A stretch of 52,080 nt of DNA from Bacillota bacterium (lineage in GTDB: Bacteria; Bacillota; Sulfobacillia; DUMF01): contig DUMF01000003.1 of assembly GCA_012840015.1 (NCBI GenBank), positions 1 to 52,080 of the forward strand. Reading direction: 5' to 3'. The translations under genes were made by a program, and so were the position numbers. Each line of letters begins with the position of its first letter. The first letter of the stretch is position 1. Shown in pieces: positions 15,422 through 47,912 of this stretch. The notes under the pieces were generated by a model. It saw only the letters and a program-made list of their open reading frames with translations, was not told where the DNA came from and searched no databases.

Positions 15422-16719
15422 GTCGAGGCAGGCAACGCGCAGACCTCTTGATCAATCACGCTTCCACGCTTGTCACCATGTCCCCTTCCATCCCACACAC
15501 CGGCTCGATGATGTCTCAAGTGGCCGTGATCCGTGACGGAGCCGTTGCGGTTTCGGAAGGCCGCATAACGGCGGTCGGCAAAACCACCGAAGTCGAAGCC
15601 AGTGTGGAGATAGGGCCAAGCACCACCGTACTGGATGCTAATGGTAAGACGGTCACTCCGGGTCTCGTGGACCCACATACTCACCTGGTGTTCGGCGGTT
15701 GGAGGGCAGACGAATTTGGATGCCTTTTACGTGGTGTGCCCTACAAGCAGCTCCTGGCTGAAGGCAAGGGCATACAGCAAACAGTTCGGGCCACTAGGGA
15801 AGCCAGTTTCATGGCCCTGGTGGAGAAGGCCATGCCGGTGCTGGACTGGATGGTCAGATGGGGCGTGACTACCGTCGAAATCAAGAGCGGTTACGGTCTA
15901 GAGCTCGAGACCGAGCTAAAGCAGTTGAATGTGATCAGGCAGCTGATGCAAATGACTACTCTCGACCTCATTCCGACGTTCCTGGGCGCCCACGCAATCC
16001 CTCCTGAGTATAAAGATCGGCCCGATGAATACATTTCCTTTCTCGTAAATGTCATGCTGCCCCTTATCTCCGAAAGGCATCTTGCAGAGTTTGTGGATGT
16101 ATTCTGCGAACCCGGGGTTTTCACCCCCTCCCAGAGTGAGACCCTGCTGAAAGCAGCCAAAGATCAAGGCTTTGGGTTGAAGATCCACGCAGACGAGATG
16201 GAGAGCTCAGGTGGAGCAGAGCTGGCGGCCAGGCTGGGCGCTACTTCAGCGGATCACCTGATGGCAGCATCCGACGAGGGTCTAGACGCGATGGCTCGTG
16301 CAGGGGTGATCGCGGTAATACTACCGGGGACAAGCCTGGTGCTGCGAAAGCCTGCCGCAAACGCGCGCCGTATGATCGAAAAGGGGCTCGCCGTGGCCAT
16401 CGCCACGGACTTTAACCCGGGTAGCTGTCCCGTCCAGACATTGCCTCTGGTAATGTCTCTCGCTTGTCTGCTTTGCGGCATGACGCCCGAAGAGGCGCTT
16501 TGTGCCGCTACGATAAACGCCGCTTTCGCCTGTGGTCGCGGAAACGTGGTTGGTTCGTTGGAAGTAGGCAAACAAGCTGACATCGTGATATTTAACGCCC
16601 CAGACCTGAGCTACATCCCGTATCGAGTCGGGACGAACTTGGCGGAAGTCGTAATCAAGAAAGGCAAGATAGTCTCTCGATCTCAATTCAAGATGGGGGT
16701 GATCCAAGGTGTTGGCTGA
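15418..16719 (+). CDS. hutI: Imidazolonepropionase
   Basis: Third enzyme of histidine degradation: it opens 4-imidazolone-5-propionate to N-formimino-L-glutamate. The 433-residue product has the metal-binding VDPHTHLVFGGWRADEF (HxH), the substrate loop EIKSGYGLE, a later IHADEM histidine, SADHLMAASDEG, and ATDFNPGSCP, which carries the last metal-binding Asp. It starts 4 bases inside the preceding gene and overlaps the cyclodeaminase gene by 11 bases. No hutH (histidase) or hutU (urocanase) occurs in the window, so the pathway is only partly clustered here. Confidence 0.95.
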   Translation: MSRGRQRADLLINHASTLVTMSPSIPHTGSMMSQVAVIRDGAVAVSEGRITAVGKTTEVEASVEIGPSTTVLDANGKTVTPGLVDPHTHLVFGGWRADEFGCLLRGVPYKQLLAEGKGIQQTVRATREASFMALVEKAMPVLDWMVRWGVTTVEIKSGYGLELETELKQLNVIRQLMQMTTLDLIPTFLGAHAIPPEYKDRPDEYISFLVNVMLPLISERHLAEFVDVFCEPGVFTPSQSETLLKAAKDQGFGLKIHADEMESSGGAELAARLGATSADHLMAASDEGLDAMARAGVIAVILPGTSLVLRKPAANARRMIEKGLAVAIATDFNPGSCPVQTLPLVMSLACLLCGMTPEEALCAATINAAFACGRGNVVGSLEVGKQADIVIFNAPDLSYIPYRVGTNLAEVVIKKGKIVSRSQFKMGVIQGVG

Positions 16720-17302
16720 ATTGAAACTGGGTGATTTCCTGGAGCAACTGGCTTCGGCTTCGCCAGTTCCAGGCGGGGGTGCTGCCTCCGCGCTGGCCGG
16801 TGCCGCAGCTGCGGCGTTGGTGTCGATGGTGGCAAACCTCACCCTGGGACGTAAGAAGTTTGAGACTCACAAGGTAGTTATGGAAGAGGTACTTGCACGA
16901 AGTGAAACGCTTAGAAGAGAACTGCTAAAACTCGCTGACCGGGATATGGCGGCATTTCAAGCTGTGATGGCAGCCTACCGAATGCCCAAAGATACCGCTG
17001 CTGAACGAGCACAACGGGACGAACGCATCCAAGCTTGTCTCAAAGAAGCCGCGACAGTGCCTGCCGAGGTCATCAGATTGTCAGCAGAAGTATTTGAGCT
17101 ATCTGAAAAGGCACGCCGTCACGGCAATCCCAACGCAGCCAGCGATGCTGGGACGGCAGCGGCACTCGCCGTCGCGGCCATACACGGAGCCGCTCTCAAC
17201 GTTTTTACCAACCTGGAGTCGATTAACGACAAAGAATTCGTCCAGAATATGAGAAACTGCCTTGCTCACTCTGAAACTGTGAGGAGGTTGATATCTAGAT
17301 GA
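16709..17302 (+). CDS. fchA: Formimidoyltetrahydrofolate cyclodeaminase (stand-alone FTCD C-terminal domain)
   Basis: A 197-residue protein of the cyclodeaminase/cyclohydrolase family, which converts formimino-tetrahydrofolate to methenyl-tetrahydrofolate and ammonia. The family signature SASPVPGGGAASALAGAAAAALVSMV is near the N-terminus (given here only to identify the region around residues 14-40), followed by NPNAASDAGTAAALA around residue 145. In animals this domain is fused to a formiminotransferase; here it stands alone and the transferase is not in view. The GTG start lies inside hutI, and the stop overlaps the fhs start (ATGA), so hutI, fchA and fhs are translationally coupled. Confidence 0.9.
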   Translation: MLAELKLGDFLEQLASASPVPGGGAASALAGAAAAALVSMVANLTLGRKKFETHKVVMEEVLARSETLRRELLKLADRDMAAFQAVMAAYRMPKDTAAERAQRDERIQACLKEAATVPAEVIRLSAEVFELSEKARRHGNPNAASDAGTAAALAVAAIHGAALNVFTNLESINDKEFVQNMRNCLAHSETVRRLISR

Positions 17303-18999
17303 AAAGCGATATCGAGATTGCACAAGAAGCAAAGATGCTCCCGATTCTCGATATAGCCCGCCAACTGGGATTGGATGAAGAGGATATCGAGTATTACGGA
17401 AAGTACAAGGCCAAGATTGACCTAAAAGTGTTCGATAAGCTAAAGGACAGGCCGTCTGGAAAGTACGTAGTGGTGACCGCCATCACCCCGACACCTCTAG
17501 GTGAAGGCAAGACTACTACCACGATCGGGCTGGGACAAGCGTTGAACAGGTTAGGCTACCGGGCTGTCAATTGCATACGGCAACCCTCCCTTGGCCCAGT
17601 GTTCGGCATAAAGGGCGGAGCTGCCGGCGGCGGATATGCTCAGTGCGTGCCCATGGAGGACTTCAACCTCCATTTTACGGGTGATACCCATGCGGTTGCG
17701 CTTGCCCATAACTTATTGGCTGCATTTATTGATTCAAGCATTCTTCACAACAACCCCCTCGATATTGACCCGTTCTCTATCACATGGCCACGGGTAGTGG
17801 ACGTATCTGACCGCGCCCTCCGCAAAGTGGTCATAGGCCTCGGGGGTAAAGAGAACGGCTATCCGCGGGAAACCGGGTTCGACATAGCTGTGGCCTCAGA
17901 AGTAATGGCCATTCTCGCGCTCACCACAGACCTGCAAGATTTGCGCGCACGTCTGGGCCGAATAGTGATAGGATATAGCCGCTCGGGTAAACCGGTGACA
18001 GCGGAAGACTTGCGTTGCGCTGGGTCTATGGCAGTCCTACTGAAGGACGCGATTAAGCCGAACCTGATACAAACGTTGGAAAATACGCCGGTGCTGGTAC
18101 ATACAGGGCCTTTCGCCAACATCGCCCATGGTAACAGTTCCATAATCGCCGACCGCATAGCCATTAAGTGTGCTGACTTCGTGGTCACAGAGGCGGGCTT
18201 TGGTGCAGATATTGGAGCTGAGAAGTTCTTTAACATTAAATGTCGATACAGCGGTTTGAAACCAGATGCCGCGGTACTCGTTACCACGGTGAGAGCGTTG
18301 AAAATGCACGGCGGAGCATTTAAGGCGATGCCGGGGAAGGCAATCGACAAAGAGCAGATGGCCAAGGAAAATTACGAAGCGCTGCTCGCCGGTTGTGCAA
18401 ACATGGAAAAACAAATAGAAAACGTTAAGATGCACGGAGTACCAGTAGTCGTAGCGATCAATAAGTTTTACACTGATAAAGAAAAGGAATGGGCACTGAT
18501 CAAAGAAAGAGCCCTTCAGGCAGGGGCGGAAGATGCTGTACTTAGCGAAGTGTGGGAAAAAGGCGGAGAAGGGGGAGTGGAATTGGCAAAAGCCCTAGTC
18601 AAGGCCGCCCAATCTGGGAGCCGCCAGTTCCGTTTCCTCTATCCCCTTGACATGTCTGTGAAGGAGAAGATAGATATCATAGCCAAGAAGGTATACGGTG
18701 CAGGGAACGTCGAGTATCTGCCTCAAGCAGATAAACAAATAGAACGCTACGAACAGTCGGGCTTTGGCAACCTGCCTATATGCATGGCCAAAACGCATCT
18801 CTCGCTCTCGGCCGACCCAAATCTAAAGGGACGCCCCAGCGGGTTCACAATAACCGTGCGGGAGGTCCGGGCATCTGTTGGGGCCGGCTTCCTCTATCCG
18901 ATCTTGGGCGAAATGAGGACCATGCCCGGTTTGCCTTCGGATCCGGCGGGAGCTCACATTGATTTCGGCCCGGATGGAAAGATCGTGGGTCTGTTCTAG
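17299..18999 (+). CDS. fhs: Formate-tetrahydrofolate ligase
   Basis: A 566-residue enzyme that makes 10-formyl-tetrahydrofolate from formate, ATP and tetrahydrofolate, or runs in reverse to yield ATP. Seen are the ATP-binding TPTPLGEGKTTTTIGLGQAL, the conserved FGIKGGAAGGGYAQ, the signature EAGFGADIGAEKF and the C-terminal ADPNLKGRPSGFTITVREVR. Length is standard. Its place behind hutI and fchA suggests that one-carbon units from histidine are cashed in here for ATP or formate. In acetogenic or syntrophic Clostridia the same enzyme also serves the Wood-Ljungdahl pathway. Confidence 0.97.
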   Translation: MKSDIEIAQEAKMLPILDIARQLGLDEEDIEYYGKYKAKIDLKVFDKLKDRPSGKYVVVTAITPTPLGEGKTTTTIGLGQALNRLGYRAVNCIRQPSLGPVFGIKGGAAGGGYAQCVPMEDFNLHFTGDTHAVALAHNLLAAFIDSSILHNNPLDIDPFSITWPRVVDVSDRALRKVVIGLGGKENGYPRETGFDIAVASEVMAILALTTDLQDLRARLGRIVIGYSRSGKPVTAEDLRCAGSMAVLLKDAIKPNLIQTLENTPVLVHTGPFANIAHGNSSIIADRIAIKCADFVVTEAGFGADIGAEKFFNIKCRYSGLKPDAAVLVTTVRALKMHGGAFKAMPGKAIDKEQMAKENYEALLAGCANMEKQIENVKMHGVPVVVAINKFYTDKEKEWALIKERALQAGAEDAVLSEVWEKGGEGGVELAKALVKAAQSGSRQFRFLYPLDMSVKEKIDIIAKKVYGAGNVEYLPQADKQIERYEQSGFGNLPICMAKTHLSLSADPNLKGRPSGFTITVREVRASVGAGFLYPILGEMRTMPGLPSDPAGAHIDFGPDGKIVGLF

Positions 19000-19070
19000 C
19001 GTTTTAATCCCAGACGATATGCAGTGAAGATATGCAGTAACGAATGCAGTCTGATAGGAGGGACTCGGGC

Positions 19071-19844
19071 ATGTTGATGGCAATCGACGTAGGAAATACG
19101 AACATAGTAGTCGGAGCATACGACGGAGAAAGAATGCTGACCCACTGGCGGATTGCAACCAACAAACAGAAGACTTCAGACGAGCTCGGGATCCTGATCA
19201 TCCAGCTGTTTAATCACGCGCAGATCGATCCCGGTGCAGTAAACGCGATAGTGATATCGTCCGTCGTACCGCCCCTGAACCACACTTTGGAGGCCATGTC
19301 TTACAAGTTTTGGCACCTGCGGCCTACATTGGTATCGGCAGAGCTCGATTTGGGCGTCCCTATCAAGTACGATAACCCTTGGGAGCTGGGAGCTGACCGA
19401 ATAGTGAACGCCGTTGCCGCGAAGCAGCTCTATGGTGCTCCCTGCATCGTCGTAGACTTCGGAACCGCTACCACCCTGGACGTCGTATCCGCGCAAGGCG
19501 AATACCTCGGCGGTTCCATCGCCCCGGGCATCTCAATATCCACCGAAGCACTCTTCAAAAGAGCCGCCAGGCTGTACAAAGTGGAAATCCGCCGCCCCAA
19601 TCGTGTCATCGGCTCTACCACGAGCGATGCCCTTCAATCGGGCATTTTCTGGGGATTCGTGGGCCAAGTAGAGAAGTTGATAGAACGAACGCAAATGGAA
19701 CTCGGCCAGCAAGCATTTGTTGTCGCCACTGGAGGGCTCGCAGGTCTCATTGCGCCTGAATGTAAAGGTGTTCATAAGGTAGAACCGTTTTTGACATTGG
19801 AGGGACTAAGAATAATACACGAGAGGCTTACAAATGCTCACTGA
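19071..19844 (+). CDS. coaX: Type III pantothenate kinase
   Basis: First step of coenzyme A synthesis, phosphorylating pantothenate. The 257-residue product opens MLMAIDVGNTNIVVGAYDG (phosphate-1 motif), has WELGADRIVNAVAA, VVDFGTATTLDVV (phosphate-2), GGSIAPGISIS, and ATGGLAGLIAPE near the end. These are the diagnostic CoaX motifs. The ATG at 19071 follows AGGAGGG, so an in-frame ATG at 19044 is not used. The last 11 bases overlap the ThiF-like gene. Confidence 0.96.
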   Translation: MLMAIDVGNTNIVVGAYDGERMLTHWRIATNKQKTSDELGILIIQLFNHAQIDPGAVNAIVISSVVPPLNHTLEAMSYKFWHLRPTLVSAELDLGVPIKYDNPWELGADRIVNAVAAKQLYGAPCIVVDFGTATTLDVVSAQGEYLGGSIAPGISISTEALFKRAARLYKVEIRRPNRVIGSTTSDALQSGIFWGFVGQVEKLIERTQMELGQQAFVVATGGLAGLIAPECKGVHKVEPFLTLEGLRIIHERLTNAH

Positions 19845-21000
19845 TAAGGATTTGATCAGGTATTCCAGACAGATGGTGATGCCTGGCTTTGGGGAAGGAG
19901 CCCAACACAAACTTCTAGGCGCGAAGGTACTCGTAGTTGGGGCAGGAGGGCTAGGCTCACCCGTACTTTCGTATCTCACCGCGGCCGGCATCGGGCAAAT
20001 AGGAATCGTAGATCCCGATGTGGTTGATCTGTCTAACTTGCAACGCCAGGTAATACATTCCACGGCCTCGCTCGGGATACCCAAGGTGTTCTCGGCCAAA
20101 ATGAGGCTCCAGCAGATCAATCCAGGGATACAAGTCCAGACCTACCAGACGGAGCTCACCGCTAAGACGGCTGTTGAGATCATCCCCGGGTATGACCTAG
20201 TAGTAGACTGCGTGGATAATCTCGCAACCAGGTACGTCGTCAACGATGCGTGTGTCGCACTCCAGAAGCCTCTGATAGAAGCTGGAGTGACGCGCTACGA
20301 AGGTCTCATCACGACCATAATTCCGGGTAAGAGCCCTTGTTATAGGTGCATATTCCCCAACCCACCAGCAGATGACGCGATACCCTCCCCTGCTCAAACT
20401 GGTGTTCTCGGTTCAACTCCCGGGGTAATCGGGGCTATGCAGGCAACTGAAGCGATTAAGCTCATCCTCGGCGCGGGTAGGACCTTAGCCGGGCGGCTCA
20501 TGATCGTCGACCTGCTCGACATGGAGTGCAGGCTTATCGAAGTCGAGCGATCAGCGAATTGTCCTTCCTGTAGCTGGCTGGACGATCTCGCCATTGCCCG
20601 CGCAGAGCTCGAAAGGGACAACTCGATAGCAGTAGTGGCAGTAAAGGGAGGACAGGTGATCGGTAAAGAGTCCGGCAGGAGACTACTCCCTCTCATCCGG
20701 TTGGTAGACTCACTTGGGCTTACGCTGCACGGCGCCTCCGTTGCGGATAAAGTAGTGGGTCTGGCCGCAGCACGGGTCTTGCTGGCTGCTGGCGTGCGCG
20801 CTGTCTTCGGCAAAATAATGAGCCAGTCGGCACTAGAGCAATTCAAACGGGATAGCGTGCCCGCTCACTTCTCTTCGACAGTACCTTGCATCCAGGGGCC
20901 AGGCGGGAACTCGTGCCCGATGGAAGGGATCGCCCGCGCTGCTCAAACTCATGAAGAAGCTCTCACTAAGCTCCGCCAGGCACTCAAGCACATGCCCTGA
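19834..21000 (+). CDS. ThiF/MoeB-type E1-like adenylyltransferase fused to a DUF1893 (TM1506-like) domain
   Basis: A 388-residue protein of two parts. Residues 1-250 are an E1-like adenylating enzyme of the ThiF/MoeB/HesA family: nucleotide loop VLVVGAGGLGSPVLSYL, IGIVDPDVVDLSNLQRQ, VVDCVDNLATRYVVND, and two CxxC pairs (CYRC near 170, CPSC near 246) for a structural zinc. Residues 260-388 match DUF1893, known from T. maritima TM1506 with a deaminase-like fold: GRRLLPLIRLVD, HGASVADKVVGLAAARVLL, and the CPME signature followed by THEEALTKLRQ. MoeB/ThiF proteins usually end after the zinc site or carry a rhodanese domain, so this fusion is unusual. No ThiS/MoaD partner is nearby. It overlaps coaX by 11 bases. 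Confidence 0.85.
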   Translation: MLTDKDLIRYSRQMVMPGFGEGAQHKLLGAKVLVVGAGGLGSPVLSYLTAAGIGQIGIVDPDVVDLSNLQRQVIHSTASLGIPKVFSAKMRLQQINPGIQVQTYQTELTAKTAVEIIPGYDLVVDCVDNLATRYVVNDACVALQKPLIEAGVTRYEGLITTIIPGKSPCYRCIFPNPPADDAIPSPAQTGVLGSTPGVIGAMQATEAIKLILGAGRTLAGRLMIVDLLDMECRLIEVERSANCPSCSWLDDLAIARAELERDNSIAVVAVKGGQVIGKESGRRLLPLIRLVDSLGLTLHGASVADKVVGLAAARVLLAAGVRAVFGKIMSQSALEQFKRDSVPAHFSSTVPCIQGPGGNSCPMEGIARAAQTHEEALTKLRQALKHMP

Positions 21001-39010: not shown

Positions 39011-39047
39011 AAGTCGACACTTCACCTGCCTACCGTAGTTGGTCCGA

Positions 39048-39063
39048 AGCAAGAGGCATGCCT
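39048..39063 (-). promoter_or_regulatory. Sigma-54 (-24/-12) promoter of the leftward catabolic operon
   Basis: The reverse strand reads AGGCATGCCTCTTGCT, with GG (39061-39062) and GC (39049-39050) separated by exactly 10 bases. This compares with the consensus TGGCAC-N5-TTGC(A/T): GGCA and TTGCT match. Transcription would begin near 39037, 27 bases before the ATG of the hydratase alpha gene. A divergent sigma-54 activator gene lies immediately upstream. Confidence 0.75.
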
Positions 39064-39118
39064 ACAATTGCGCCCTCTGCAGGAGACACAAGGGTTCCAG
39101 TAGAAGAATTAGAAGAAC

Positions 39119-39132
39119 TAATCAGATGATTA
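39119..39132. promoter_or_regulatory. Dyad TAATCAGATGATTA, candidate activator binding site
   Basis: TAATCA and TGATTA are perfect inverted arms with a 2-base centre, located about 80-95 bases upstream of the predicted sigma-54 start. That is the usual distance for an enhancer-like site of a sigma-54 activator. It lies between the promoter and the activator's own start. Confidence 0.45.
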
Positions 39133-39179
39133 AGCACGCTCTCTTCACTGCCCATGGCTCTCAACTGGAGGTGGTCGTC

Positions 39180-41096
39180 TTGCCCGAAATAGGCATAATC
39201 TTCGGGGGGCTCGCCCCATACCCTGACATTAAAGACATGGTTAAGAGCGAGGCTGAAGTTGTCGAAAGCGTGACGATGGATCAGGCGGGAGCCGTTGCAG
39301 AAGACATGGCTCGGCGCGGCGTGCAGGCGATCATCAGTCTTGGTGCGACTGCAGACATCGTGGCGGACAAGGTCGATCTCCCTGTGGTCCGGGTGGACCT
39401 TACAAACTTTGATGTGCTGGAAATGCTGGATAGGGTAAAGCACATGTCAAGAAACGTTTCGAAAATCGGCATGACCTGCTACTACAAAGCTGGCATAGAT
39501 ATGGAGAGAATACAGAAGTTCCTCGACGTGCAGGTGGAACTCGCCAGGTATAGAGGCATAGAAGACCTCAAATGGCACGTAATGGACCTATGTGCGAAAG
39601 GGGTGGACATAATTGTCGGCGGCACCTCGACTGTCAGGTACGCTGAGGACCTTGGGATCCGCACATTTCAGCTCTACGTTGGAAAGGAAACGCTTCTCAA
39701 AGCCATAGAGAAAGCGCGGGACATTGTAAACATCCGCCGCCGCGACCTCGAAAGGTCAGAGCAACTCCAGGCCATACTCCGTTTCACCCGCGAGGGAATA
39801 ATCGCGGTGGACCACAATGGGAAGGTCATGATTTTCAACCCTACCGCAGAGAAGTTGCTGGGATGCCCCTCCTCTGCAGTGATCGGCAAACCCATCAACC
39901 GCATAATGCGGGAATTTGATTGGGACGGAGTAGTAAAAGGTAAAGGACCATTGCTTGATCACTTGATTACACTGCAGGATAGCAAGGTCTTTATGAACCG
40001 GGTACCGATAATCGTAAACGGAAAGGTAACGGGAGCAGTCGCTACTCTACAGGAAAGCACTCAGATTGAAAAACTGGAGCACAAGATGCGCCGGCTCGCC
40101 ACGACCGGCTTTTCTGCGAAGTTCCGTTTTGAAGATATTGTTGGCCAGAGCGAAGTCCTGAAAAAATGCATAAGTCGCGCACGGACCTACGCCGAAACAG
40201 ACTCTACGGTCTTAATTACCGGCGAGACCGGAACGGGCAAGGAATTGTTCGCCCAGAGCATACACAACGCCAGCCCCAGACGTGAGGGGCCCTTCGTCGC
40301 CATCAACTGCGCAGCCCTCCCCGAGAATCTGTTGGAAAGTGAGTTGTTCGGTTACGAGGAAGGTGCTTTCACTGGTGCGCGGCGCGGCGGCAACCCCGGA
40401 CTGTTTGAGCTGGCCCACGGTGGCACCATCTTTCTAGACGAAATCGGTGATCTCCCTCTGTTACTTCAAGCGCGGCTGCTGCGCGTGGTTCAAGAAAAGG
40501 AAGTCCGGAGGCTTGGGGGAGGTAAGGTAATACCCGTTGACGTCCGAATAATTTGCGCAACCAACACGGACCTCGAAGAAAGCGTTGCGAAAGGCCGATT
40601 TCGAGCGGACTTGTATCACCGATTAAATGTCTTGAGAATCCATATTCCACCGCTACGAGAGCGCCCGGAGGATATTCCGCTTCTCCTTGAAAACTCATTC
40701 CGGCGGCTAACGGGCGAAGTCTCCGGCTTGATCAAACCCTTGAACAGAGCAGCCCTGGACTTATTATGCGCTTACACCTGGCCCGGAAATGTCCGCGAGC
40801 TCGAGAACTTTGCAGAAAGATATGTCACGCTTCGAGAAGAGCTTCGCGGAGAAGAAGTAGAGTGGGTAAGGAATTACGTGCTGCAGAGGCTCAAACGGAA
40901 CGAGCCTACCGAGCCTTCGCCCGACCCCCTTTCTAGCTCTAAACCAGTTACCATCAGCTTGGGCCCGCTCAGTTCGATGGAACGCGATATCATTCAGAAG
41001 GCTATTGAAATGTTTCACGGTAACAAGTCTCGGGCAGCTGACTTTCTAGGTGTCAGCAGAACGACGCTTTGGAAGAAACTGAAAGGCGTCAGCTAG
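39180..41096 (+). CDS. PrpR-type sigma-54-dependent transcriptional activator
   Basis: About 638 residues in four parts: an N-terminal PrpR-N domain ([31 protein letters not shown]) that in propionate activators senses a pathway metabolite; a PAS domain near 195-300 ([23 protein letters not shown]); an AAA+ domain with Walker [13 protein letters not shown], the sigma-54 contact GAFTGA, and Walker [13 protein letters not shown]; and a Fis-type helix-turn-helix tail [21 protein letters not shown] choose the TTG at 39180 behind GGAGGTG; an ATG at 39126 lacks a binding site and would cover the dyad. It is divergent from the hydratase operon and upstream of the methylmalonyl-CoA operon, each with a -24/-12 promoter, so it may control both. 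Confidence 0.9.
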
Positions 41097-41214
41097 GGTG
41101 ACTCTCCTGAGCAAGGCGTAACAGTGAGTGCTCAGTAACCTTGAGGTGCATGCCCGCAGCCGTTACTCGGGCCCTAGGCCTTTGTTTTCTAGTGCATCAG
41201 TTAGTACTGTATTC

Positions 41215-41476
41215 TAAGACATCACCCCGTTTGAAGCGTCTAGTAGCGTGTAGTCATCGTTCCCAGTTTTCGCAAACACCACCAGCGCCAATAGAATCAG
41301 CCCGATCATAGGTTGCCCCAAAGATACCTTCGCTGCATCTGTCACCCGCCGAGCACTCAAATCCGACGATCACCCGGGTGAAAACGGAACTACGGGCGTG
41401 ATAGGGTGGTTGGGGCCAATAGCATAACCCACTATTGTGAACACCATCAGCGCTCCAGTAAGAAGCAATAAGCCAT
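41215..41476 (-). pseudogene. Decayed TctC-type binding-protein gene fragment
   Basis: The reverse strand reads ITPVVPFSPG, a TGA stop, SSDLSARRVTDAAK, GQPMIG and NDDYTLLDASNG. Line by line these match VTLVVPYAPGG, SSDLSARPVADAMK and NDGYTLLNASIG of the intact TctC at 29.8-30.8 kb, but with an internal stop, a rearranged middle part and no C-terminal two thirds. The rest of 41097-41770 holds only short shadow frames, so this gap is a graveyard of an older transporter gene. Confidence 0.7.
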
Positions 41477-41772
41477 GTTTTGTTCTAATGAGTTTGCGCA
41501 GACCTGACTTGACCCCTTGAGCAATACCAGCACTCTACCAACTGCATCGGCGCTTCTCGCCAAGGTTGTCTGCTGTTGCAGCCGTCCCCCGGTGTTTAGG
41601 TTTTTTGCTCCCGATAACAATCTGTTCAGTTTGTAGACGTCCTTACTGCAGCCAAGGCACCGGTCATGCCGATAGGATCCGCCAGATCTCTTCGGCAGAT
41701 CTAGCAGCGAGTGAGACCAATGGCCCGCTTCCACCCGGTTTAGATGGGTGCCAGGGGCTAATCAAGTGGTCT

Positions 41773-41788
41773 TGGCATGATAGATGCA
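41773..41788 (+). promoter_or_regulatory. Sigma-54 (-24/-12) promoter of the methylmalonyl-CoA operon
   Basis: TGGCATGATAGATGCA has GG (41774-41775) and GC (41786-41787) exactly 10 bases apart and matches TGGCA and TGCA of the consensus. Transcription would start near 41799, about 70 bases before the mutase ATG. Confidence 0.7.
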
Positions 41789-41867
41789 CAGTAAATGAAA
41801 CTGAGAGAAGGCGGAGTATCACTCACACAGTTGAAACCAAAACAGGCGCACAAGGAGGAATCCCCCA

Positions 41868-43547
41868 ATGTACGACCGGGAAAGCCTCGAGTTAGTCAAG
41901 GCCTTGAAGCGGGAATGGGAAGAAGGCTCTCTGAAGACCGTCTTGTCAAAGCACCCCGAGCGCAAGGAACGATTCGTGACTGGATCCAATCTTCCGGTTG
42001 AAAGACTGTACACCCCTGCCGAGGTCGAATCACTCGATTACGCGAGGGACCTGGGTTTTCCGGGTGAGTACCCGTATACGCGGGGAGTCCAGCCGACCAT
42101 GTACAGGGGTCGCCTCTGGACCATGAGACAATACGCGGGATTCGGTACGGCGGAGGAGTCCAATGCAAGGTATAAGTACCTCCTTAAGCAGGGTCAGACG
42201 GGGCTGAGCGTTGCCTTCGATCTCCCGACCCAGATCGGGTATGACTCGGACCACCCGCTTGCCGAGGGCGAAGTGGGGAAGGTCGGCGTCGCGATAGACT
42301 CGCTGGCCGATATGGAAACGCTGTTCGAAGGGATCCCCCTGGATAAGGTCAGCACCTCGATGACAATCAACGCCCCCGCGTCGATCCTTCTCGCAATGTA
42401 CATAGTAGTTGCGGAAAAGCAAAACGTTCCTGCCGATAAACTGAATGGTACCATCCAGAACGACATCCTCAAGGAGTATGCGGCTCGAGGTACGTACATC
42501 TTCCCCCCGAAGCCATCGATGAGGCTGATCACGGATGTCTTCGCCTACTGTTCAAAGAACCTTCCCGAGTGGAACACGATAAGCATAAGCGGCTACCACA
42601 TCAGAGAGGCGGGTGCGACAGCGGTACAGGAGGTAGCGTTCACCCTGGCCAACGGCATTGCCTACGTCGACGCCGCCATTAAGGCGGGTTTGAGCGTAGA
42701 TCAGTTCGGTCCAAGGCTCTCGTTCTTCTTCAGCGCTCATTCGGATCTCTTTGAGGAGGTGGCCAAGTTCCGGGCCGCCAGGCGATTGTGGGCCAAGATT
42801 ATGAAGGAGCGGTTCGGAGCTAAGGATCCGAGGTCGATGATGCTGAGGTTCCATACGCAGACCGCCGGTTCGACGCTGACGGCGCAGCAACCCGACAACA
42901 ACATTGTCAGGGTCGCGCTTCAGGCGCTCTCTGCAGTACTGGGCGGAACGCAGTCGCTGCACACCAATTCTAGGGACGAGGCTCTCGCGCTCCCGTCGGA
43001 GGATTCCGTCCGCATCGCGCTCCGCACGCAGCAGATCATCGCTTATGAGAGCGGCGTGACGAACACGATTGATCCGCTCGCTGGCTCCTACTACGTGGAG
43101 GCACTCACCGACAGGATCGAGAAAGAGGCTGCTGAGTATATCGCAAAGATAGACGCGCTCGGCGGTTCGCCCGCGGCCATCGAAAAGGGGTTCATCCAGC
43201 AGGAGATCCAGGATAGCGCTTACAGATGGCAGAAAGAGGTCGAGAATGGCGACAGAATAGTGGTCGGCGTAAACAAGTTCCAGATCCAGGAGCCGCCGCC
43301 CACGGGCCTCCTCAAAGTGGATCCTGCCGTGGGCGAACGCCAGAAGAAGAAGATTGCCGAGCTGAAAGCGAAGAGGGACGGCGCCCGCGTGGAGGCATCG
43401 CTTAACAGCCTGCGGCGCGCCGCTGAGGGCACGGATAATCTTATGCCGTACATTCTCGAAGCAGTACGCTCGTATGCCACTCTTGGTGAAATTTGTGACA
43501 CGCTGCGCAAGGTCTTTGGTGAATACAGGTCCACTGTGAGCTACTAA
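41868..43547 (+). CDS. Methylmalonyl-CoA mutase large subunit
   Basis: A 559-residue mutase barrel that interconverts succinyl-CoA and methylmalonyl-CoA with adenosylcobalamin. Key pocket residues are present: Tyr79 in [20 protein letters not shown], Arg219 in [14 protein letters not shown], His244 in [17 protein letters not shown], and the [15 protein letters not shown] stretch. The B12-binding domain is encoded separately by the next gene, as in many Clostridia and archaea. The ATG at 41868 follows AAGGAGGA. It is the first gene of an operon that also holds epimerase, the decarboxylase subunits and the mutase chaperone, which confirms the substrate. Confidence 0.95.
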
Positions 43548-43561
43548 GGAGGGCCGGAGGA

Positions 43562-43963
43562 ATGAGTGACCGTCTTATCAGAGTGTTGGTAGCCAAGCCG
43601 GGGCTAGATGGCCACGACAGGGGGGCGAAGGTAGTCGCCCGGTCGCTGCGTGATGCCGGTATGGAAGTGATCTACACAGGTCTGCGGCAGACTCCGGAGA
43701 AGATCGTCGAAGCCGCCTTGCAGGAAGACGTCGACGTAGTTGGCCTTAGCATTCTGTCAGGAGCCCACATGGCCATCTTACCGCGGGTGATCGAGTTGCT
43801 TAAGAAGCACGGACTAAATGACGTGTTGGTAGTTGCCGGTGGGGTTATTCCCAACGACGACGTACCCGCCTTAAAAGAAATGGGCGTATCGGCAGTTTTC
43901 ACACCGGGGACTTCGACAAAGGATATAGCCGCATTCATACGGGCCAACGTGAGGCGGAGGTGA
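43562..43963 (+). CDS. Methylmalonyl-CoA mutase cobalamin-binding subunit
   Basis: A 133-residue B12 domain: [23 protein letters not shown] (DxHxxG motif with the cobalt-binding His), [14 protein letters not shown] and [14 protein letters not shown]. It starts with ATG behind GGAGG, 14 bases after the large subunit. It must associate with the large subunit to make the active enzyme. Confidence 0.95.
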
Positions 43964-43968
43964 TGTAG

Positions 43969-44385
43969 ATGGTGCTTGGGTTTGCAGCGTCCAGACTCGA
44001 CCACGTGGGGATCGCGGTCAGAAGTATTGATGAGGCCTCGAGACTTTACGTGGACATACTCGGGCTGAAGGTTCACGGTGTGGAGGTCGTCCCGGAGCAG
44101 AAGGTCAAGGTCGCTTTCATCCCAGTGGGTGACAGTGAGATCGAGCTCCTGGAGTCGACGGCGCCGGACGGCCCGGTGGCGAAGTTTATCGAGGCTAAGG
44201 GAGAAGGTATACAGCACATAGCACTTAGGGTAACGGACATTGAGGAAGCGCTCAAGAAGTGCAAGGAAGTAGGCCTTAGACTTATCGACGAGACGCCGCG
44301 CAAAGGCGCTGGCGGCGCCAGGATAGCGTTCGTACATCCAAAGGGCACGAACGGGGTACTCCTGGAACTTTGCGAGAGAGGATGA
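43969..44385 (+). CDS. mce: Methylmalonyl-CoA epimerase
   Basis: A 138-residue vicinal-oxygen-chelate protein that switches (R)- and (S)-methylmalonyl-CoA, allowing mutase and decarboxylase to work in series. Metal ligands are seen in [11 protein letters not shown] (His), [10 protein letters not shown] (His) and the final VLLELCE (Glu). It follows the B12 subunit gene by 5 bases. Length and motifs are standard for the family. Confidence 0.95.
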
Positions 44386-44415
44386 GTCTCCCAGCTTCAG
44401 ACGGAGGTGAGGCAA

Positions 44416-45966
44416 TTGGGGATCGAGGAAAGACTTATTGAGCTCAAGGAACGCCGCAATAAAGTCAGGCAAGGAGGCGGCCCCGAGAGGATCGAGAAGC
44501 AGCATTCGAGCGGCAAACTCACTGCACGGGAGCGCATCGAGCTGCTGCTGGACGCTGGCACATTTCACGAAATAGGTGGGTTCGTGAAGCACCGATGCGT
44601 GGACTTTGGAATGGATAAGGAGGTTGCTCCCGGGGAAGGCGTCGTAACGGGCTGGGGGTTGGTGGAGGGACGGCCTGTGTGCGTCTCATCGCAGGACTTC
44701 ACGGTGATCGGCGGGTCGCTCGGTGAGATGCATGCTTCGAAGATCGTGAAGGCGATGGAGCTAGCGGCCAAAATGGGCTGCCCGTTCATCGCGCTGAACG
44801 ATTCTGGTGGAGCACGTATTCAAGAAGGAGTAGATGCGCTGAGAGGATACGGAGACATCTTTTATCGCAATTCGATATACTCGGGCGTGATACCCCAGAT
44901 ATCGGTGATCATGGGCCCCTGTGCAGGCGGCGCTGTGTATTCTCCCGCTCTCACAGACTGGGTCTTCATGGTAGATAAGACCAGCCATATGTTCATCACA
45001 GGGCCTCAGGTGATTAAGGCGGTGACTGGGGAAGAGGTGGACTTCGAGCGGCTGGGTGGTGCCGCCGTCCACAATCAAATAAGCGGAGTGGCTCATTTCA
45101 TAGCTCAAGATGAGCGGACTTGCCTCGCCATGGTGAGGCGACTCCTTGGTTATATTCCTTCCAACAACGCAGAAGAACCGCCTTTCGTTCAAAGCACAGA
45201 TGACCCGCGAAGGTTGGAGCCTGGCCTGCGAGAGGTAATCCCCGACGATCCCAACAAGGGTTACGACATGCATCAGGTGGTAGAGGCAGTGGTGGATAGC
45301 GGAAGCTTCATGGAAGTACACGCCCATTACGCAACGAACATAATCGTCGGGTTTGCACGCTTGGGTGGCAGGAGTGTGGGGGTCATCGCCAACCAGCCGA
45401 GGGTAAAGGCGGGTTGCTTGGACATTGACGCTTCCGATAAAGCAGCCAGGTTCATACGCTTCTGCGATTGCTTCAATGTCCCCGTGCTTACGTTCGCGGA
45501 CGTGCCTGGGTATCTGCCAGGCGTCGGGCAGGAGCATGGCGGAATTATCAGACACGGTGCCAAGTTGCTGTACGCCTACTCTGAAGCTACAGTTCCCAAG
45601 GTCACTGTAATAGTGAGGAAAGCGTATGGTGGCGCATACATAGCCATGTGTTCCCGGCACTTGGGTGGGGATGTGGTCTACGCGCTGCCCACTGCGGAGA
45701 TAGCAGTTATGGGCCCGGAGGCTGCAGCGAACATCATCTTTCGTAATTACATCAAAGAGTCCGCAGATCCGGAAGCCGCCAGGAAAGAGAAAATCCAGGA
45801 GTTCAGGGAAAAGTTCGCAAATCCGTATGTGGCTGCGGCGCGAGGCTACGTGGATGACGTGATAGACCCGGCCGAGATTAGACCCAAAGTGATATCGGCA
45901 TTTGAGGTGCTTAGGACTAAAGCGGAAACTAGGCCAGCCAAAAAACACGGCAACATGCCGGTGTGA
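44416..45966 (+). CDS. mmdA: Methylmalonyl-CoA decarboxylase alpha subunit (carboxyltransferase)
   Basis: A 516-residue acyl-CoA carboxyltransferase that moves the carboxyl group of methylmalonyl-CoA to biotin on the gamma subunit. It shows EKQHSSGKLTARERIELLLD, CPFIALNDSGGARIQEGVD, MGPCAGGAVYSPALTDW, a C-terminal half with GIIRHGAKLLYAYSEATVPK and AYGGAYIAMCSRHLGGD, and a VMGPEAAANIIF end region. The TTG at 44416 behind GGAGGTGA fits family N-termini better than the GTG at 44407, which lies within the binding site. With propionyl-CoA carboxylase-type relatives the direction could be reversed, but the beta and delta subunits downstream show the sodium-pump form. Confidence 0.93.
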   Translation: MGIEERLIELKERRNKVRQGGGPERIEKQHSSGKLTARERIELLLDAGTFHEIGGFVKHRCVDFGMDKEVAPGEGVVTGWGLVEGRPVCVSSQDFTVIGGSLGEMHASKIVKAMELAAKMGCPFIALNDSGGARIQEGVDALRGYGDIFYRNSIYSGVIPQISVIMGPCAGGAVYSPALTDWVFMVDKTSHMFITGPQVIKAVTGEEVDFERLGGAAVHNQISGVAHFIAQDERTCLAMVRRLLGYIPSNNAEEPPFVQSTDDPRRLEPGLREVIPDDPNKGYDMHQVVEAVVDSGSFMEVHAHYATNIIVGFARLGGRSVGVIANQPRVKAGCLDIDASDKAARFIRFCDCFNVPVLTFADVPGYLPGVGQEHGGIIRHGAKLLYAYSEATVPKVTVIVRKAYGGAYIAMCSRHLGGDVVYALPTAEIAVMGPEAAANIIFRNYIKESADPEAARKEKIQEFREKFANPYVAAARGYVDDVIDPAEIRPKVISAFEVLRTKAETRPAKKHGNMPV

Positions 45967-45999
45967 CGGGCATGAGGAGACAGTTGGAGGTGAGGTCGC

Positions 46000-46386
46000 G
46001 TGATCGCTGATACGTTAGTAGGTGGGTTGTTTCTGTCGGTGGTTGACATGGCGGTGGTCTTCGCGGTTCTGTTTGGATTGGCGTTCATAACTAAAGGGCT
46101 GTCGACAGTAATAAGGCGGGGCGAAGAAGGTGGTGGCAACCCAAAAAAAGTTGAGCCGCCCAGGGGGCGGACTTCAGACACCGTAGCGGACTGGGAGGAA
46201 CCGCTGCGGGACGGCGAGGATGACCGAAGCGTAGCCGCGGTGATTGCTGCAGCCGCAGCGGCGTGTGAGGGTCGATATAGTTTTGCGAACTTAAAGGTTA
46301 GCGGAGTATTTAACACGGGGGTTGCACCCAGCCAGTGGGCGCTGTTGGGTAGACAGCGACAGATCATGGCCAAGGTAGGGAGGTAG
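46000..46386 (+). CDS. Decarboxylase delta subunit (OadG-like small membrane protein)
   Basis: A 128-residue protein with a single N-terminal membrane segment (VVDMAVVFAVLFGLAFITKGL) and a charged, Pro- and Glu-rich cytoplasmic part, the build of OadG/MmdD subunits that stabilise the complex and tie the alpha subunit to the membrane part. RYSFANLKVSGVFNTG and a final SQWALLGRQRQIMAKVGR are its conserved-looking end. It starts with GTG behind GGAGGTGAGG. Confidence 0.8.
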   Translation: MIADTLVGGLFLSVVDMAVVFAVLFGLAFITKGLSTVIRRGEEGGGNPKKVEPPRGRTSDTVADWEEPLRDGEDDRSVAAVIAAAAAACEGRYSFANLKVSGVFNTGVAPSQWALLGRQRQIMAKVGR

Positions 46387-46393
46387 CACTCAA

Positions 46394-46777
46394 ATGAAGA
46401 GATATAAGGTTACAGTGAATGGAAAGACCTATGAAGTAGAGGTGGAAGAAATCGGTGGCGGCATACGGGCCACTGCTGTGACTCCGGTGGCAGAACTAGC
46501 ACCAGCTGCGCCGCCTGCTCCAGCGCCAGCGCCGGCTGCTCCCCAGACAGCGGACACCGGGGATGGGGAAATCATCAGGGCGCCTCTCCCTGGAGTGATA
46601 ACCGAATACAAGGTCAAGGCAGGCGAACGCGTAAAGAGAGGACAGGTGCTATTACTCCTGGAAGCGATGAAAATGCAGAACGAAATCATGGCTCCTAGAG
46701 ACGCTCTGGTTAAGAGTATAGACAACAATCAGGGTGCTAACGTTAATACTGGGGATCGTCTGCTCACACTAGAATGA
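46394..46777 (+). CDS. mmdC: Biotin carrier (gamma) subunit of methylmalonyl-CoA decarboxylase
   Basis: A 127-residue biotinyl protein. It opens [19 protein letters not shown], continues through a flexible Ala/Pro linker (residues 37-55), and ends in a biotinyl domain with the lysine target in [13 protein letters not shown]. Biotin here shuttles CO2 from the alpha to the beta subunit. Only 7 bases separate it from the delta gene. Confidence 0.95.
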
Positions 46778-46793
46778 CCGGGGGCTGATAAAA

Positions 46794-47912
46794 ATGGACT
46801 TTGGAAGGGTATTTGCCACTCTGGCTAGCAGCACGGGGCTGATTCAGCTAAAGCTGGGTAACATAGTGATGCTCTTCGTCGGATTCGGCCTGCTATATCT
46901 CTCTATAAAGAAAGGTTTTGAGCCGCTTTTGCTATTGCCGATAGGCTTTGGGTGTGTGCTGGCCAACCTGCCGGCGACCGGGATAATGGATCCCGGAGGG
47001 CTAATGAAGTATCTTTACTTCGGTGTGGAACACGAGATATTCCCGCCACTGATCTTCATGGGCGTCGGTGCTATGACTGATTTCGGCCCGCTGATAGCGA
47101 ACCCCTGGACCATGTTGATGGGAGCCGGGGCACAACTTGGCATATTCATAGCCATGATGGGAGCCAAATTGCTGGGGTTCACGCTTAAAGAAGCCGGGTC
47201 AATAGGGATCATCGGCGGAGCTGATGGGCCCACCGCCATTTACGTGACGGTAAAAATGGCACCTCACCTTCTTGGTCCCATAGCCGTAGCAGCGTACTCA
47301 TACATGTCACTGGTACCGCTCATCCAGCCGCCCATAATGTACGCGCTGACTACTAAAGCTGAGCGGCAAATCGTCATGGAACAGCTCAGGCCGGTCTCTA
47401 AGACAGAGAAGATCCTGTTCCCAATAGTTACTGCGGTAGTCATAAGCTTGCTGCTCCCGATGATTGCCCCGCTGATCGGCATGTTGATGTTGGGCAATCT
47501 CTTTAGAGAAGCGGGCGTGGTGGAGAGGCTATGGAAGACAGCTCAAAATGAGCTGATAAACATCATAACCATTTTCCTGGCCACTTCCGTGGGTGCTACG
47601 ATGAGCGCTGATAGCTTCCTCACCTTAAGGACGATCGAGATAATATGCCTTGGCCTCGTAGCTTTTGCTGGCGGCACCGCCGGAGGGCTATGGGTGGGTA
47701 AGATCATGAACTGGCTGAGCAGAGGCAAGATCAACCCGCTTATAGGCTCTGCCGGCGTGTCTGCAGTGCCGATGGCAGCCAGAGTCTCGCAGGTTGTGGG
47801 GCAGAGAGAAAATCCCGGCAACTTCCTGCTGATGCACGCCATGGGCCCCAACGTGGCAGGGGTAATCGGTACCGCAGTGGCAGCCGGCTGTATGCTGGCA
47901 TTGCTCATGTAG
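46794..47912 (+). CDS. mmdB: Sodium-pumping decarboxylase beta subunit (MmdB/OadB/GcdB family)
   Basis: A 372-residue integral membrane protein with about 10 segments. It decarboxylates carboxybiotin and couples this to Na+ export. The family signature [21 protein letters not shown] contains the essential Asp, and [22 protein letters not shown] and the late [20 protein letters not shown] region are also conserved. ATG at 46794 behind GGGGGCTG. It is the end of the decarboxylase block. Confidence 0.95.

Follow-up and report, generated by a model that had tools for sequence, protein, structure and literature searches.

A single gene of the analysed window (the whole stretch of 52,080 nucleotides) encodes an E1-like enzyme of the MoeB/ThiF type that passes, without any linker, straight into a domain of the DUF1893 family. 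Pfam analyses of the 388-residue product revealed ThiF at residues 10-244 (PF00899; E = 2.7e-82; 275.9 bits versus a cut-off of 28.1; profile positions 1-237 of 238) and TM1506/DUF1893 at residues 262-383 (PF08973; E = 1.4e-21; 76.9 bits versus a cut-off of 27). Since the PF08973 profile is covered from position 8 to 129 of 130, the DUF1893 domain is complete, and when scored in isolation it reached 80.5 bits. An initial annotation had proposed a ThiF protein fused to DUF1893, with residues 260-388 matching the DUF1893 profile, and the occurrence of both domains in one ORF bears this out; the coordinates given there (20590-21000) cover the DUF1893 half, but the gene itself begins at 19834.

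The fusion is a genuine single gene. The alternative, already raised in the initial annotation, that two genes were joined through an error of sequencing or assembly would agree with the fusion being known from one genome only. However, there is no frame break, and no in-frame ATG, GTG or TTG was found in the ORF between residues 230 and 268, so that a separate DUF1893 gene could not begin there. The GC3 values of the two halves (0.60 and 0.61) equal those of the neighbouring genes and are even over the junction, both MoeB zinc CxxC motifs, CYRC and CPSC, lie in one frame with DUF1893, and both domains are complete on a 52-kb contig. A joining error is therefore very unlikely.

Table 1. Features of the fusion gene and of the genes upstream (positions in the window)
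Feature	Position	Strand	Evidence or remark
FTCD_C/FchA-like cyclodeaminase	16709..17302	+	PF04961
Formate-tetrahydrofolate ligase (FTHFS)	17299..18999	+	PF01268
coaX, type III pantothenate kinase	19044..19844	+	PF03309; overlaps start of fusion gene
Fusion gene, MoeB/ThiF-type E1 + DUF1893	19834..21000	+	single intact ORF, 388 codons/388 aa
ThiF/MoeB adenylyltransferase domain, aa 10-244	19861..20565	+	PF00899
CYRC, aa 169-172, MoeB zinc site half 1	20338..20349	+	sequence; conserved among aligned MoeBs
Pro186, crossover-loop position	20389..20391	+	Cys in most MoeB relatives
CPSC, aa 243-246, MoeB zinc site half 2	20560..20571	+	sequence; conserved among aligned MoeBs
DUF1893/TM1506 domain, aa 251-388, deaminase-like fold	20584..20997	+	PF08973, AlphaFold2, 1vk9 match
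ADKVVG, aa 304-309, Asp305 and Gly309 invariant	20743..20760	+	86 DUF1893 sequences
CPME, aa 361-364, Cys361 and Glu364 invariant	20914..20925	+	86 DUF1893 sequences

The E1 half passed the NCBIfam model for the MoeB subfamily NF004281 (276.5 bits versus 266) and stayed below the cut-offs of the MoeB equivalogs (TIGR02355, NF005902 for MoeZ, and others). Over the ThiF half it is 46-54% identical to its best relatives of the same class, several of which carry a rhodanese. No Pfam match to rhodanese (PF00581) was obtained for the fusion protein, and DUF1893, which starts only a few residues beyond CPSC, stands in that place. Also, the cysteine that follows CYRC in the crossover loop is absent from this E1 half, where the loop reads IPSPAQTG as opposed to VPSCxxAG in most MoeB relatives.

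The order FchA-FTHFS-CoaX-MoeB is repeated in a genome of the same class (G051), in which MoeB stops after the zinc site and lacks DUF1893. CoaX-MoeB is kept in two further genomes (G035 and G014) and BirA-CoaX-MoeB in another one (G019). The ThiF half of the fusion groups with the MoeBs of these four genomes and of G012 (six rows, 91/87); the crossover-loop cysteine is missing in all six rows of this clade, and a fused DUF1893 is absent from the Cys-less relatives. In G039, BirA is followed by CoaX-TusA-MoeB, with TusA between CoaX and MoeB, and a separate DUF1893 of the same genome is the sister of the window's domain (85/88). A DUF1893-BirA fusion lies between FTHFS and CoaX in one genus of the class (g27; loci L019-L021 and L122), and MoeB-rhodanese proteins are present in other relatives. 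From these sequence comparisons it appears that a gene at a conserved locus acquired DUF1893 where relatives carry a sulfur donor. Further downstream, the window holds a methylmalonyl-CoA pathway cluster (39039-47912) led by a PrpR_N/sigma-54 regulator, which is followed by methylmalonyl-CoA mutase, a B12-binding protein, a carboxyltransferase and the beta subunit of a Na+-pumping decarboxylase.

In the host genome (2.04 Mb, 96% complete), the fusion is the sole E1 of the MoeB/ThiF kind. One further ThiF-family ORF (641 aa) adjoins a SMODS nucleotidyltransferase and a JAB protein in a CBASS-like cluster (L045:231-3646 on contig C3), with another large ORF upstream. Membership of the fusion in CBASS was rejected, as the CBASS-like E1 is this different gene, and the fusion is therefore the only E1 seen that could serve sulfur carriers. 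The initial annotation was right in that no ThiS or MoaD gene adjoins the fusion, which is explained by carriers encoded elsewhere: a search of the genome for ThiS/MoaD revealed, away from the fusion gene, five small MoaD-like proteins (Ubls) ending in GG, and four of their five genes touch or directly adjoin genes for tungsten-type aldehyde:ferredoxin oxidoreductases (AORs), for which the genome gave nine AFOR_N matches. MoaA, MoaC and MoeA were identified by Pfam and a MogA/MoaB-like ORF was assigned by eye; the corresponding Moco/Wco cluster (L188:1888-7050 on contig C25) also contains a second MoeA-like ORF, which has 642 aa and an additional C-terminal part. MoaE, the large subunit of molybdopterin synthase, was not found in the genome. 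Neither was a convincing ThiG, the best candidate being a partial match that scored 30 bits and covered one third of the profile, and a thiamine role of the fusion was rejected on this ground.

AOR-linked MoaD and MoeB have been proposed to act in the synthesis of the tungsten cofactor (Wco; PMC1779556), and in Thermococcus kodakarensis one E1 serves several Ubls as well as the AOR-linked tungsten cofactor (PMC11323500). Given a sole E1, AOR-linked Ubls, the presence of MoaA, MoaC, MoeA and MogA/MoaB and the absence of MoaE and of a convincing ThiG, tungsten-cofactor synthesis is the most likely task of the E1 half, whose pairing with the carriers of the host we infer. The first 250 residues would use ATP to adenylate the C-terminal glycine of the five MoaD-like carriers which, once sulfurated, would supply tungsten-pterin synthesis for the AORs of the host. 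For the E1 half, we consider this function highly probable, with both the choice of substrates and the link to tungsten deduced.

The DUF1893 half was modelled with AlphaFold2 (pLDDT 96.6; pTM 0.91), and the closest structure was 1vk9 (TM1506; Z = 20.3), in agreement with the deaminase-like fold expected by the initial annotation. Next came PurH (AICARFT part; Z about 10-12), the sulfurtransferase FdhD (2pw9; Z = 9.7) and deaminases of the RibD type (Z about 9). Another match (Z = 10.0; 107 residues; 21% identity) was to chain DA of PDB 9ou7, a 538-aa chain on the 50S dimer of Methanosarcina acetivorans. Asp305, Gly309, Cys361 and Glu364 do not vary in any of 86 DUF1893 sequences, the latter two belonging to the CPME signature that, as noted initially, has been kept in the fusion. 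Neither the HxE nor the PCxxC element of a zinc-deaminase site was detected in the sequence of the domain or in its conserved columns, and a zinc-dependent nucleoside deaminase was rejected because these classical residues are missing. With FdhD the domain has a D-K-x-x-G element in common; profile comparison gave no significant similarity (hhalign probability 1.8), and the CxxC motif of FdhD lies outside the segment aligned with DUF1893.

DUF1893 is widespread (gut Bacteroidales, where a scan with a query alignment of three sequences showed it to be common, Clostridia, Bathyarchaeia and Thermotoga), and some of the genomes that carry it lack AOR. DUF1893 usually stands alone, as the initial annotation held, but not always: it was found fused to biotin ligase BirA in genus g27 and, at loci L160-L168, to a homoserine-kinase-like GHMP kinase and, in either order, to ECF S-components. 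As a partner of an E1 it was met in no other genome searched: a second E1-DUF1893 fusion was not found among 154 genomes of the class, 398 genomes of the phylum, where many matches were judged by frame length only, and 62 GTDB loci, a search that was not exhaustive. DUF1893 frames often overlap the gene upstream. Family f5 of the class has stand-alone DUF1893 immediately in front of AOR genes. FmdE, thioredoxin and NadA are among the neighbours of DUF1893 in Bathyarchaeia, and in Bacteroidales and Clostridia it is accompanied by an ECF S-component and a 4Fe-4S aldo/keto reductase.

Within the class, AOR is present in 27 of 35 genomes with DUF1893 versus 37 of 119 without it (by family, 11/12 versus 17/36; p = 0.008) and MoaE in 4/35 versus 86/119, a pattern that kinship and anaerobic lifestyle can explain in part. 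Recognisable MoaE is missing from 45 of the 64 AOR-bearing genomes of the class, and 16 of these also lack MoaC. DUF1893 occurs in 24 of those 45 genomes versus 3 of the 19 AOR genomes with MoaE; 21 AOR genomes have neither MoaE nor DUF1893, and several genomes with both DUF1893 and AOR lack MoaC.

We tentatively propose that the DUF1893 tail is a sulfur or thiol relay that works through the invariant Cys361, every step assigned to DUF1893 being conjectural. As an accessory module at the rhodanese position of MoeB-rhodanese proteins, it might use thiol chemistry of Cys361, with Glu364 and Asp305, to help bring sulfur to the MoaD adenylate, and it might thereby stand in for the donor, rhodanese or TusA, and for the crossover-loop cysteine lost in this MoeB clade. 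Besides the rhodanese position, the lost loop cysteine and the invariant cysteine, this reading is favoured by the adjacency to AOR genes, the FdhD-like fold, TusA beside MoeB in G039, the co-occurrence of DUF1893 with AOR and the thioredoxin that adjoins DUF1893 in archaea. The main argument against it comes from the fusions to BirA, GHMP kinase and ECF S-components, in which no sulfur step is evident. It is further weakened by the abundance of DUF1893 in gut Bacteroidales, by the position of the FdhD CxxC motif together with the lack of significant profile similarity, by the Cys-less MoeB relatives that have no fused DUF1893, by the occurrence of the fusion in a single genome, from which selection for it cannot be shown, and by TM1506 itself, for which a review (PMC8946771, citing Iyer 2011) reports auto-ADP-ribosylation on an Asp. 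The latter report would rather suit a nucleotide-binding regulator for cofactor- or vitamin-linked enzymes, perhaps an auto-ADP-ribosylating sensor of NAD or ADP-ribose that tunes MoeB to the energy or redox state. The invariant Asp305 would be a candidate modification site, DUF1893 is fused to or lies next to the cofactor genes for MoeB, BirA, ECF S-components, CoaX, NadA and FmdE, and its closest folds beyond DUF1893 (PurH AICARFT, RibD, FdhD) bind nucleotides or folate-type ligands. However, the invariant Cys and Glu look catalytic more than sensory, and the homoserine-kinase-like GHMP kinase does not belong to the cofactor enzymes. We regard a regulator as equally tentative.

DUF1893 might also act independently on a substrate of its own and have been joined to MoeB opportunistically, as operon neighbours in these genomes often overlap or fuse. 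Such a neutral fusion would agree with a single occurrence, with the attachment of DUF1893 to four unrelated partners across lineages, on either side of the ECF S-component, with the frequent overlap with the upstream gene, and with the DUF1893-BirA fusion of a relative in the same FTHFS...CoaX neighbourhood. In contrast, the exact join without linker, the motifs kept in both halves and the position shared with rhodanese in homologues speak against it. We consider a neutral fusion about as likely as the other two readings. A further idea, that DUF1893 does the missing MoaE step and is supplied with sulfur by the MoaD thiocarboxylate formed on this very polypeptide, is suggested by the presence of MoaA, MoaC, five MoaD, MoeB and MoeA without MoaE, and by the higher frequency of DUF1893 in AOR genomes that lack MoaE. 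It is improbable, however, as many AOR genomes lack both proteins, MoaC is missing from several DUF1893/AOR genomes and DUF1893 occurs without AOR too. In summary, relay, regulator and neutral fusion fit the data about equally, and the relay, narrowly ahead, is our leading guess; the explanation as a whole, a tungsten-cofactor E1 with a DUF1893 sulfur relay, we consider possible.

The initial annotation had suggested that DUF1893 acts on the product of the adenylation or sulfur-transfer step. The rhodanese position and the placement of DUF1893 directly before AOR make it reasonable to assume a role close to sulfur transfer, whereas action on the E1 product is unsupported. Fusions to BirA, GHMP kinase and ECF S-components, AOR-less genomes and the occurrence in gut Bacteroidales indicate that the general role of DUF1893 is not limited to Ubl activation, and a purely E1-specific role is doubtful. 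We know of no established function for DUF1893, and a literature search on this name gave no match. Its fusion to an enzyme of known mechanism, together with the other fusions and the AOR adjacency, narrows the search towards cofactor metabolism, its placement exactly where relatives carry a sulfur donor offers a handle on a possible function of the domain, and the fusion is a construct with which the effect of DUF1893 can be measured in standard MoeB/MoaD assays. The inventory also exposes a gap, as many AOR genomes of the class have MoaC and no recognisable MoaE.

Accessory domains at the C-terminus of E1 enzymes are already known. Like MoeB-rhodanese proteins of the MOCS3/MoeZ/MoeBR type, the fusion extends a MoeB-type E1 at the C-terminus by an accessory domain that bears a Cys, but it has DUF1893 for rhodanese, no linker, and Pro for the crossover-loop Cys. 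With the stand-alone CoaX-linked MoeBs of G051, G035, G014 and G019 it has the locus order, the clade and the missing loop cysteine in common, whereas those proteins have no DUF1893 attached. The TK2117/Ubl system of T. kodakarensis is similar in that one E1 serves several Ubls, a Ubl gene lies beside AOR and the tungsten cofactor is involved; however, no DUF1893 fusion is reported there (PMC11323500), and in the host genome of the fusion MoaE was not found. FdhD, the Moco sulfurtransferase, resembles the DUF1893 half in its deaminase-like fold and the D-K-x-x-G element, but DUF1893 has no CxxC loop domain and no significant sequence similarity to FdhD. Finally, the fold and the Asp/Gly/Cys/Glu pattern are those of the DUF1893/TM1506 family (1vk9, 9e9a); TM1506 is a single domain, whereas here DUF1893 is joined to an E1.
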